64,000 bases of DNA from the NCBI GenBank assembly GCA_913057235.1, contig CAJXNI010000007.1, positions 1-64,000 of the forward strand. Direction: 5' to 3'. The notes beneath the pieces are model-generated. The model saw only the letters and a program-made list of their open reading frames with translations, was not told the DNA's origin and searched no databases. The position numbers and the translations under genes are program-made. This document shows positions 45,509 through 49,156 of the stretch, one piece after another; the first letter of the stretch is position 1; each line of letters opens with the position of its first letter. This stretch comes from an uncultured Bacteroidota bacterium. GTDB lineage: Bacteria; Bacteroidota; Bacteroidia; Flavobacteriales; Schleiferiaceae.

Positions 45509-47038
45509 CTATTCCTTTTTAGCCTCTGGGCGATAGCTTAAAGGGTTTTCTTTAGGGGCCTTTTCACGCGGATAAATTTTGGTTACTACAAAACCTACCA
45601 GCATGGCCACCGCAAAGGAGGGCCCCATAACATCCAGCTTTTCAAAGTAAGGACCAATGCCCTCCATAGGCTGTACTACAAACTTGAAAAAGGGAACGCT
45701 TAAAAAACCGGTAATCATGGTGGCAATGGCGCCCTTTTCTGAGTAGGCTTTCCAAAACAAAGACAAAATTATTACCGGGCAGAAAGTGGAGGCTATCCCT
45801 GACCAGCCAAAAATGGTAAACCAAAAGACCGTTCGGCCGGGGGTGGTTACGGCTACGGTCATGGCCAAACCCAAGGCCAGCAAGGCCATAATCAGAGTGA
45901 TGTAACTGGAAAGCTTCCCCAGTTTATTATCCGCTAAATGCGGTTTAAACACCTGCTGATAAAGATCGCGCGTAATGGCACTGGAGGCCACCACCAACAA
46001 CGAATCAATGGTACTCATGATGGCGGAGAGAATAATGGCCACGTAAATAGCAATGATGGTGAGCGGAAAGGCATTTTCCAAAACCATGGTTAAAACGTCT
46101 TCGCCACTGTTTCCCAAAATAGCTTCCGGGTCCTGACCGGCTTCCGTAAAGAGATATCGGCCTAAGAGCCCAATGGTTACGGCAGCCGCATCGGTTAGCA
46201 GGGTAAACACAATGGCCACCCAGCGGCCCATGGTAATTTCACGCTCGTTTTTCACCGAAATGAAACGCACGTAAACCTGCGGTGAGCCTAAAAAACCTAA
46301 ACCAATAAAGGCAAAACCCAGCATGCTGAAAACGCTCATCCAAGGGTCACTATGGCCGCCCCAGATGTCCAGTAAGGCCGGATCAATTTCACCCAAAGTG
46401 GGGAAGATATTAGCTTGATTGGCCAAGGTATACCAGGCAACAATGGGCAAAAGCACCAGGCCCAAAAACATGAGAATGCCTTGAAAAAAGTCAGACCACA
46501 CTACCGCCAAAAAGCCCCCGATAAAAATGTAGGCCACTACTATGCAAAAACCTACAATGGCACCGGTAAAATAATTGACATCCAAAAAGGCATTGAAAGC
46601 TTTTCCGGTAATATCAATTTGCGCACTAACGTATATGACTACAAAAATAGCCAGGGCAGCTGCAGAAATTATCCGCAGGGTATGGGTTTTTACACCAAAG
46701 TGGCTTTCTAAATAGTCGGGAACGGTGATGGAATTATACTGATCAGTAAGGCGCTTAAAAGGTTTGGCCATCACAAACCAGCTGATGGCCACGCCCAGTA
46801 CTTCACCTACAACTACCCAGTAAGCCGAAACTCCGGCAATAGCCCCCATACCGGTAAGGCCTAAAAGCAGCCAGCCACTTTCGCCCGTTGCGCGGGCTGA
46901 AAAAGCCACCGCCCAGTAGCCCAGGGTTTTACCACCCACGTAGTAATCGCTCATGCCTTTGATGCGCCTGGAGGCTACAATGCCAATGAGAAATAAGATG
47001 GCAAAGTAAATGCCCAGTACTACTAGTTTGGTAATCAT
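45509..47038 (-). CDS. sodium:solute symporter (PutP-like, SSS family)
   Basis: The 509-residue protein has about 13 membrane helices and aligns in style with PutP: FSARATGESGWLLLGLTG (sodium/substrate segment of TM2), YNSITVPDYLESHFG, and FIGGFLAVVWSDFFQG. PutP imports proline with Na+, but SSS members also carry other small zwitterions. It starts 25 bases after the PLP decarboxylase on the same strand, in the neighbourhood of a cysteine dioxygenase, so a sulfinate/sulfonate amino acid such as hypotaurine or taurine is a possible substrate (inference). The C-terminal tail is cytoplasmic and charged. Confidence 0.85.
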   Translation of the reverse strand: MITKLVVLGIYFAILFLIGIVASRRIKGMSDYYVGGKTLGYWAVAFSARATGESGWLLLGLTGMGAIAGVSAYWVVVGEVLGVAISWFVMAKPFKRLTDQYNSITVPDYLESHFGVKTHTLRIISAAALAIFVVIYVSAQIDITGKAFNAFLDVNYFTGAIVGFCIVVAYIFIGGFLAVVWSDFFQGILMFLGLVLLPIVAWYTLANQANIFPTLGEIDPALLDIWGGHSDPWMSVFSMLGFAFIGLGFLGSPQVYVRFISVKNEREITMGRWVAIVFTLLTDAAAVTIGLLGRYLFTEAGQDPEAILGNSGEDVLTMVLENAFPLTIIAIYVAIILSAIMSTIDSLLVVASSAITRDLYQQVFKPHLADNKLGKLSSYITLIMALLALGLAMTVAVTTPGRTVFWFTIFGWSGIASTFCPVIILSLFWKAYSEKGAIATMITGFLSVPFFKFVVQPMEGIGPYFEKLDVMGPSFAVAMLVGFVVTKIYPREKAPKENPLSYRPEAKKE

Positions 47039-47063
47039 AAATGTTTGGTTTGTTTAAATGAAT

Positions 47064-48437
47064 TTAGGAGGAGGTTTCCAGAATTTCCTCTTCAGCAAAA
47101 GCCTCCATTTTTTCAAAAAAGGCCTTGATGTCTTCTTCTTCATTGCCGGCATTTACGGTGACCAGTCGCACAAACTGCTCGTCTTTAAACTGGCCAAAGC
47201 CTACCATCAGTTCGCCCTTTTCATAAAGGCGGTTGCAAAGCTCATCAGCTGGAATGTCTTTGTAATTAAAGCAAATGCCCACTGACTCAGGGTAACTGTA
47301 CACCGTGTAGTCGGGGTGGTTTTCCACGTATTGGCGCGCCACTTCAGCCAAATGAAATTGGTGATCTACCATTTCACCCAAGCCTTTGGTGCCCACTGCT
47401 TTCCAAAGGGTCCAAAACTTGAGCGCATCATTTCTACGGCCGCACTGTAAGGAGGTTTTCCCCAGATTATAGTCGTCTCCATCGGTTTGGTAGAGGTAAT
47501 CGGCATCATTGGAAAAGCTATCGTACAGGTATTTTTTATTTTTAGCAATAATTATTGAGCAGGTGAGGGGCGTAGCCAGCATTTTATGAGCATTCATGCT
47601 AAAACTGTCGGCCAGCTCAGCTCCTTTAATCAGGTGTTTGTGTTTTTTGCTAAAGAGTACCGCACCGCAGTAGGCACCATCAATGTGCAACCATAAATTG
47701 TATTTTTTGGCTATGGCCGATATTTCCTGAATAGGATCAAAAGCTCCCATCACCGTAGTACCGGCCGTAGCATTTACGAAAAAGGGTTGCTTGCCTTTTT
47801 CCAAATCCGCTTTGATTTGGGCCTCTAGGTCAGCCACGTCCATGCGCCCGAATTTATCAGACTTCACATACCGTAACTGCTTGCGACCAACCCCCATGAA
47901 GGCCGCATTTTTAGGAATGGAGTAGTGGGATTCGTTGGAAGTGTACAAGGTCATTTTTTGGGAGACCCCGTCTGACTTTATTTTTTCGTTGTGGGCATCG
48001 CGGCCCATGATCATGGCCATGAGGTTGGTCATAGAGCCACCGGGGGCAATGGTGCCATCGGCTGTAGCCGGATAACCCAGCAAGTTTTTCATGTGGCGAA
48101 TGATTTCTTTTTCTACGCCTACCATAGGGCCGGCCACCTTGTAGGTGTACATGCTGTTGTTAAGCAGCACGGCAAGAAGATCTCCTAAAACGGCTTTGCC
48201 ATTACGACCACCAAACAATTGGTTAAAAAACTGGTGGGTAGCCGTGCGCGGGGTGTTTAAAACCAAGGCTTCCAAAGCGCGGCTGAAATCCTCCTCATTC
48301 TCTCCTTCTTCGCCCAAGCGCAGATCCAGGGTATTAAAGAGTTGGTCTGCTTCTATGGGTTCTAAAACCGGTTCTTGTTTTTCGGCTTGCATAAGCTTTT
48401 TAGAAAGCTGCTGAAAAAGCGCTAATTCTTGCTCCAT
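47064..48437 (-). CDS. PLP-dependent group II decarboxylase, cysteine-sulfinate/glutamate decarboxylase-like
   Basis: The 457-residue protein is a fold-type I, group II decarboxylase. The PLP lysine lies in NAHKML; other motifs are the PLP-ring segment APGGSMTNLMAM, ATAGTTVMGAFDPI and WLHIDGAY. The later segment DADYLYQTDGDDYNLG...LQCGRRNDALKFWTLWKAVG follows the order of animal CSAD/GAD enzymes much more than that of bacterial GadB. Such enzymes make GABA, hypotaurine or beta-alanine. It is divergent from a cysteine dioxygenase gene (155 bases between), which makes 3-sulfino-L-alanine, the CSAD substrate. Substrate choice is inferred, not shown. Confidence 0.85.
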   Translation of the reverse strand: MEQELALFQQLSKKLMQAEKQEPVLEPIEADQLFNTLDLRLGEEGENEEDFSRALEALVLNTPRTATHQFFNQLFGGRNGKAVLGDLLAVLLNNSMYTYKVAGPMVGVEKEIIRHMKNLLGYPATADGTIAPGGSMTNLMAMIMGRDAHNEKIKSDGVSQKMTLYTSNESHYSIPKNAAFMGVGRKQLRYVKSDKFGRMDVADLEAQIKADLEKGKQPFFVNATAGTTVMGAFDPIQEISAIAKKYNLWLHIDGAYCGAVLFSKKHKHLIKGAELADSFSMNAHKMLATPLTCSIIIAKNKKYLYDSFSNDADYLYQTDGDDYNLGKTSLQCGRRNDALKFWTLWKAVGTKGLGEMVDHQFHLAEVARQYVENHPDYTVYSYPESVGICFNYKDIPADELCNRLYEKGELMVGFGQFKDEQFVRLVTVNAGNEEEDIKAFFEKMEAFAEEEILETSS

Positions 48438-48462
48438 AATCTGATTTCTCCTTTAGATAGGG

Positions 48463-48470
48463 CAAATATA
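48463..48470 (-). promoter_or_regulatory. decarboxylase-symporter operon promoter -7 box
   Basis: TATATTTG on the minus strand fits TAnnTTTG, 25 bases upstream of the ATG at 48437. A purine-rich ribosome-binding tract (aaaggaga) lies between them. Confidence 0.55.
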
Positions 48471-48592
48471 GGTTTAATGAAAACAACCGTTTTTCGCTGA
48501 AAAATTGTTATTTTGCTTCAAAATTGAGTGATTTTAAATCGTAATCATTCCATTTTTAATCAAAAATCGAGTAAATCGAAAATCCAAAAACT

Positions 48593-49156
48593 TTGAATTT
48601 GAAAGCCATAAACTCACTAAAAGAATTAGTTGAGACGCTACCGCATTGTTCTGGTAAAGAGTATGTTGAAATAGCACACCGCATGCAAATACCTCTGGAG
48701 GACTTTGAGCCTTACGCGCATTGGAGCAAGGAAACCTACACCCGAAATTGCATCAGCAGATCAAAGGATTACGAACTGCTATTGCTTTGTTGGGAAGAGG
48801 GTATGGATACGCCTATTCACTGCCACGGTGGTGAAGAATGCTGGGTGTATGCATTGCAGGGCACCATTAAAGAAGAGCGCTTTGATTTTAGTAACGATAA
48901 AGAAGAGGAAATAGAGCTGGTGCAAAAAACCACCATGCAAGAAGATAGCATCAGTTACATGAATGACAACATGGGCTTTCATAAATTAATCAATGTAGGA
49001 GAAGGCCGCGCCATGACGCTGCACCTTTACATGAATCCCATTGACCGCTGCCGCATTTTTGATGAAGAGCAGGCCAAGTTTGAGGTCAAAGAGCTGGAAT
49101 ACCACACCTACAAGGGGGAGCCGGTAAATGACGAAATCGCCCTGGAAACTATGTAG
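48593..49156 (+). CDS. cysteine dioxygenase, type I (Arg-type)
   Basis: The 187-residue cupin protein converts L-cysteine to cysteine sulfinate. The iron-binding His residues are H76, H78 (IHCHGG) and H130 (GFHKL), spaced exactly as rat CDO H86, H88 and H140. R51 in YTRN matches the substrate-binding Arg60, which separates Arg-type cysteine dioxygenases from thiol dioxygenases with Gln. C83 and Y146 sit where the Cys93-Tyr157 crosslink forms, a feature often missing in bacteria. No ATG is available; TTG at 48593 (or TTG at 48599) begins the protein. It faces the decarboxylase divergently and ends 23 bases before umuD, which converges. Confidence 0.93.
   Translation: MNLKAINSLKELVETLPHCSGKEYVEIAHRMQIPLEDFEPYAHWSKETYTRNCISRSKDYELLLLCWEEGMDTPIHCHGGEECWVYALQGTIKEERFDFSNDKEEEIELVQKTTMQEDSISYMNDNMGFHKLINVGEGRAMTLHLYMNPIDRCRIFDEEQAKFEVKELEYHTYKGEPVNDEIALETM

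Follow-up and report, generated by a model that had tools for sequence, protein, structure and literature searches.

Gene arrangement of the locus

We analysed a stretch of 64,000 nucleotides (the window) of contig CAJXNI010000007.1, which belongs to an uncultured Schleiferiaceae bacterium (Flavobacteriales, Bacteroidota) with a genome of 2.83 Mb in 49 contigs, 99.97% complete. Three of its genes code for a cysteine dioxygenase (CDO), a pyridoxal phosphate (PLP)-dependent decarboxylase resembling cysteine sulfinate decarboxylase (CSAD), and a sodium:solute symporter. As judged from sequence, the locus very probably is a bacterial cassette for making the taurine precursor hypotaurine, to which a Na+ symporter gene is linked. 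An initial annotation had placed these three genes at positions 45509-49156; the open reading frames match this span exactly, and each product scores far above its Pfam cut-off:

45509-47038, minus strand: SSS sodium:solute symporter, PutP-like (509 aa; PF00474, SSF, 241 bits, far over the cut-off)
47064-48437, minus strand: PLP decarboxylase, CSAD-type (457 aa; PF00282, Pyridoxal_deC, 270.6 bits, far over the cut-off)
48147..48215, minus strand: codons for the F75-(19 aa)-S95-x-Y97 selectivity motif, within the decarboxylase gene
48438..48592, no strand: divergent intergenic region of 155 bp between the CDO and decarboxylase genes
48593-49156, plus strand: cysteine dioxygenase, CDO (187 aa; PF05995, CDO_I, 92.5 bits against a cut-off of 23)

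The symporter gene lies downstream of the decarboxylase gene on the same strand, at a spacing of 25 bp, and the two are probably co-transcribed. Both promoters of the divergent pair are presumed to lie inside the 155-bp region. In the sequence of its start region, the CDO gene shows TTG as start codon and no ATG close to the N-terminus, which leaves the exact start uncertain.

Cysteine dioxygenase

In a search of PDB sequences, mammalian CDO type 1 enzymes were the closest solved relatives of the window CDO (91 bits). Alignment with rat CDO superimposed the iron ligands (window/rat H76/H86, H78/H88 and H130/H140), the substrate site (Y49/Y58, R51/R60 and H144/H155), the crosslink pair C83-Y146 (rat C93 and Y157) and C153 (rat C164). 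Every tested active-site residue is hence kept, crosslink cysteine and tyrosine included, and the initial placement of R51, H76, H78, C83, H130 and Y146 agrees with the rat enzyme. The protein has the three-histidine iron site, and its substrate arginine sets it apart from mercaptopropionate dioxygenase, which has a glutamine there. The initial annotation had called the crosslink cysteine notable; however, it is ordinary here, because all 57 of 57 CDOs adjoining such decarboxylases (window counted) carry it, and it thus is the rule in this group.

The same genome holds a second CDO-like gene (contig C1, ~65635-66000; L002:1432-1959), in which HxF replaces HxH and glycine replaces the crosslink cysteine. 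Its neighbours are a persulfide-dioxygenase/rhodanese-like gene on one side and a second gene of rhodanese type on the other. HxY or HxF occurs in 11 of 17 unlinked CDO-like proteins of the class, and these cluster together in the tree; proteins of this kind, common in the class, may have another function.

Decarboxylase identity and substrate motif

Among PDB sequences, the CSAD enzymes of human and mouse matched the decarboxylase best, both with 277 bits, followed by GADL1 (270 bits) and then GAD1/2; a profile of 12 relatives gave 376 bits for GADL1, 367 for CSAD and 342 for GAD1. Identity amounts to 36% with human CSAD, 36% with human GAD1 and 35% with GADL1. The nearest named homologue, from Salibacter halophilus, is 68% identical, and this species likewise carries the symporter and CDO genes (L059). 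Named relatives are nearly all Bacteroidota. AGTTVMGAFDP and LQCGRRNDALKFW, the motifs that had led to the CSAD/GAD assignment, are both present and collinear with CSAD/GAD; K285 aligns with the PLP lysine, and R424 corresponds to a carboxylate-site residue.

In a maximum-likelihood tree, the enzyme belongs to a 23-row clade with 22 rows from Bacteroidota. Together with animal CSAD, GAD and GADL1 and two smaller bacterial groups, this clade forms a 33-row clade with a support of 100/99; diaminobutyrate and desferrioxamine decarboxylases fall outside. The phylogeny, which the initial annotation had named as a check, thus groups the enzyme as its CSAD-like label implied. It is not nested within animal CSAD, and no one sub-group stands out in the tree as the closest to the animal enzymes. 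One decarboxylase nested among Bacteroidota comes from a contig titled Kordiimonas (Pseudomonadota; L126), pointing to either gene transfer or a mislabelled contig.

A selectivity motif of the form X1-19aa-X2-aa-X3 was reportedly put forward by Agnello et al. in 2013. At these positions the window enzyme has F75, S95 and Y97 (FSY), identical to human and mouse CSAD (2jis, 6zek), whereas the same alignment gives YSY for GADL1 (6enz) and SNF for GAD1 (3vp6). Across homologues at 80 decarboxylase loci from other, named species, FSY was found in 77 of 80 and YSY in 3 of 80. Three active-site positions set selectivity in CSAD-type enzymes, and cysteine sulfinate is by far the preferred substrate of human CSAD, which is only slow on aspartate and glutamate (PMC8153620). 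By its relatives, its tree position and the FSY motif, the window decarboxylase is predicted to be of CSAD type.

A different motif was seen in family f81 of the same order, which has genomes of 1-2 Mb (L201-L209, L213). Its orthologue reads F/Y/W-S-A/S and has lost Y97, and neither CDO nor symporter adjoined it at any of the ten loci examined, which together suggest a changed substrate use outside the cassette. At most f81 loci, TseH-like, DUF6695 and glutamine-amidotransferase proteins lie beside the decarboxylase.

Conservation of the neighbourhood

Besides the 80 loci, we examined 295 genomes of the class, 12 of which carry the decarboxylase clade of the window (window counted), and 296 genomes of the order. 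A CDO gene is divergent from the decarboxylase gene at 48 of the 80 loci, and at 21 of these 48 the symporter is the next gene downstream of the decarboxylase, on its strand; at one further locus it lies beyond the CDO gene, on the opposite side from usual. The gap between the 48 pairs is mostly 56-174 bp (485 bp in one; 155 bp in the window), and at homologous loci the distance from decarboxylase to symporter lies between -4 and 39 bp (25 bp in the window). The remaining window genes tested were not conserved beside the cassette in the 80 loci.

In the class sample, CDO adjoins the decarboxylase in 9 of the 12 clade genomes (8/11 without the window) and the symporter does so in 7/12. Anywhere in the genome, a CDO gene is found in 11/12 clade genomes versus 31/283 others (Fisher p 1.5e-9, kinship ignored), and the symporter in 9/12 versus 13/283 (Fisher p 2.3e-9, kinship ignored). 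In genome G192, CDO is parted from the decarboxylase yet still faces the symporter. The decarboxylase is patchy in the order (58/296 genomes). Six of seven same-family genomes that have it carry the full three-gene cassette; in the seventh, which lacks an adjacent CDO, the contig stops just past the decarboxylase. Conservation of the CDO-decarboxylase pair in relatives, on which the initial annotation had staked its proposal, is thus found in other species, in the class and in the family.

A HAD hydrolase, SHMT, a CLC channel and the TseH-like/DUF6695 protein were checked as recurrent neighbours and not counted as part of the cassette. At 26 of the 80 loci (L059-L138), and also at L047-L049 and L201-L213, the decarboxylase has a TseH-like (PF25218)/DUF6695 protein no more than a few kb away, and this holds in several separate clades.

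The symporter and its relatives

The best curated match of the symporter is the PutP model TIGR02121, with 331 bits against an equivalog cut-off of 515.5. All four cassette symporters tested remain well below this cut-off (323-345 bits). Homologues with ~60-63% identity occur in seven other genomes of the class, where they adjoin genes of the pyrimidine-degradation type (L183-L187, L189, L190): dihydropyrimidinase, joined from one locus to the next by an NCS1 nucleobase permease, a carbon-nitrogen hydrolase or a class III aminotransferase, families being assigned from representatives. Reductive pyrimidine degradation ends in beta-alanine. Like hypotaurine and taurine, beta-alanine is a small omega-amino acid, and animal taurine carriers also take it up. 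Since the homologues sit in clusters that yield beta-alanine, and since these substrates are chemically alike, we infer that the cassette symporter is a carrier for small omega-amino acids (hypotaurine, taurine or beta-alanine), with proline as a further possible substrate. The same context suggests that its relatives in the pyrimidine clusters are beta-alanine carriers.

Proposed hypotaurine pathway and alternative explanations

Enzyme identities, catalytic and selectivity residues and the conserved linkage are shown by sequence, and the reactions, transport substrate and physiological role may be derived from them as follows. CDO, a mononuclear iron enzyme, would convert L-cysteine and O2 to L-cysteine sulfinate. 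The divergently encoded PLP decarboxylase would then remove the alpha-carboxyl group, producing hypotaurine. The co-oriented Na+ symporter probably serves uptake or retrieval of the product or of a near analogue such as taurine or beta-alanine. Hypotaurine may be kept as such or be oxidised to taurine by a separate, putative route; most plausibly, it would act as a compatible solute or antioxidant. The taurine dissimilation gene xsc was not found in the window's genome, which gave a weak match below cut-off as every control genome does, and we count this in favour of hypotaurine formation. No BCCT carrier scored above cut-off in this genome. Tree position, F-S-Y residues and conservation of the pair all support the hypotaurine-making role first proposed for the locus.

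Several observations weigh against this assignment. No FMO-like hypotaurine oxidase scored above cut-off in the window's own genome. Of the 80 homologous loci, 40% lack an adjacent CDO, in some cases because the contig breaks off there, and many homologous loci are without the symporter. The co-occurrence tests ignore shared ancestry, although the arrangement does recur in several families. GADL1, with its YSY motif, prefers aspartate (PMC5947694), and the prediction from FSY therefore leaves room for aspartate use. Finally, three class-sample genomes of the window's clade, all of one family, lack the aspartate decarboxylase PanD and have PanC, hinting that the decarboxylase makes beta-alanine there.

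The last two points lead to an alternative in which the enzyme is mainly an L-aspartate 1-decarboxylase whose product, beta-alanine, goes into pantothenate or serves as a solute, with the symporter carrying beta-alanine and CDO being linked for other reasons. Its animal relatives GADL1 and CSAD do use aspartate, and the pyrimidine-degradation context of the symporter homologues would fit. In the class sample, moreover, PanD is missing in 9 of 18 genomes with FSY/YSY decarboxylases versus 28/277 others (p 6e-5), and PanC is present in 8 of these 9. However, the clade to which the window enzyme belongs shows no significant PanD loss (3/12 versus 34/283, p 0.18), the window's genome has its own PanD (2.9e-48) and thus does not need the decarboxylase for beta-alanine, the motif is the FSY of CSAD and not the YSY of GADL1, and CDO linkage is kept across many families. 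We therefore regard a main role on aspartate as improbable for the window enzyme. Loss of PanD is total (6/6, with PanC in 5/6) in a divergent group of decarboxylases with 35-38% identity (L015-L020; genomes G034, G103, G136, G167, G228, G253), whose FSY/YSY enzymes may stand in for PanD as aspartate decarboxylases. For the symporter, as the third gene only, an ordinary proline importer that merely adjoins the pathway is conceivable but rather unlikely: proline is a widely used osmoprotectant and the best curated matches are PutP models, yet all four cassette symporters score well under the PutP cut-off, the gene is linked to and co-occurs with the decarboxylase (in G192 it stays with CDO alone), and the seven homologues lie beside pyrimidine-degradation genes.

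The genes could also serve cysteine catabolism or detoxification, with CDO removing excess cysteine, the decarboxylase and symporter handling cysteate or other acidic amino acids, and taurine or hypotaurine as waste. CSAD enzymes accept cysteate too (PMC8153620), and the lack of a hypotaurine oxidase above cut-off would agree with a waste product. But SSS carriers usually import and the locus has no linked gene for export, a cell needs no decarboxylase to get rid of sulfinate, and the second CDO-like gene beside the persulfide-dioxygenase-like gene represents a more typical setting for sulfur disposal, so we give this explanation very little weight. A glutamate or diaminobutyrate decarboxylase would be hardly credible. 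The best NCBIfam model by E-value is indeed L-2,4-diaminobutyrate decarboxylase and identity to human GAD1 equals that to CSAD, but the former scores 200 bits against a cut-off of 900, its enzymes lie outside the clade in the tree, and the selectivity positions read HSD/NSD in the diaminobutyrate type and SNF in GAD. A PanP-type aspartate decarboxylase model reached 141 bits against a cut-off of 606; HMM cut-offs, tree and motif led us to dismiss all three assignments.

Returning to the hypotaurine cassette, we may speculate on a wider scheme, which is doubtful as a whole. The symporters could form an undescribed bacterial family of small omega-amino-acid carriers, for hypotaurine or taurine in the cassette and beta-alanine in the pyrimidine clusters. 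Bacteroidota FSY/YSY decarboxylases could have switched repeatedly between cysteine sulfinate and aspartate. In some lineages they would have taken the place of PanD, and in streamlined lineages without adjacent CDO or symporter the loss of Y97 would have brought a change of substrate.

Significance and comparison with known systems

Among marine sulfur and nitrogen compounds, taurine and hypotaurine are important ones, and they are mostly credited to animals and algae. Conservation of the cassette across many Bacteroidota would make these bacteria likely producers or recyclers of both compounds. A CDO gene opposite that of an FSY decarboxylase, with the symporter after the latter, provides a simple sequence signature for finding them, and the natural FSY, YSY (as in L047) and FSA (as in L201) variants could help to show how members of the CSAD/GAD/GADL1 family select their substrates.

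Animals and some marine bacteria are already known to have the CDO-CSAD route to hypotaurine; the symporter partner and the wide spread in the phylum are added here. The bacterial pathway to taurine is said to have been described by Agnello in 2013. PMC12585060 cites the formation of taurine from cysteine for both marine cyanobacteria and marine flavobacteria, and the CSAD of Synechococcus sp. PCC 7335 has been expressed according to PMC8153620. Compared by description only, the Synechococcus pathway shares with the window CDO and a CSAD-type decarboxylase with cysteine-sulfinate selectivity residues, whereas the window adds divergent orientation and a conserved SSS symporter after the decarboxylase. 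The mammalian CDO1-CSAD pathway has the same CDO catalytic residues, including the Cys-Tyr crosslink pair, and the same F-S-Y motif in CSAD; in contrast, the window decarboxylase is only 36% identical, belongs to a separate bacterial clade and comes without an FMO-type oxidase above cut-off in its genome. GADL1, an acidic amino acid decarboxylase for aspartate and cysteine sulfinate, lies in the same superfamily clade at 35% identity but has YSY where the window enzyme has FSY. With PutP-type SSS symporters, finally, the window protein shares the fold family and its best curated HMM match, yet it stays under the equivalog cut-off, and its genomic context points to omega-amino acids.

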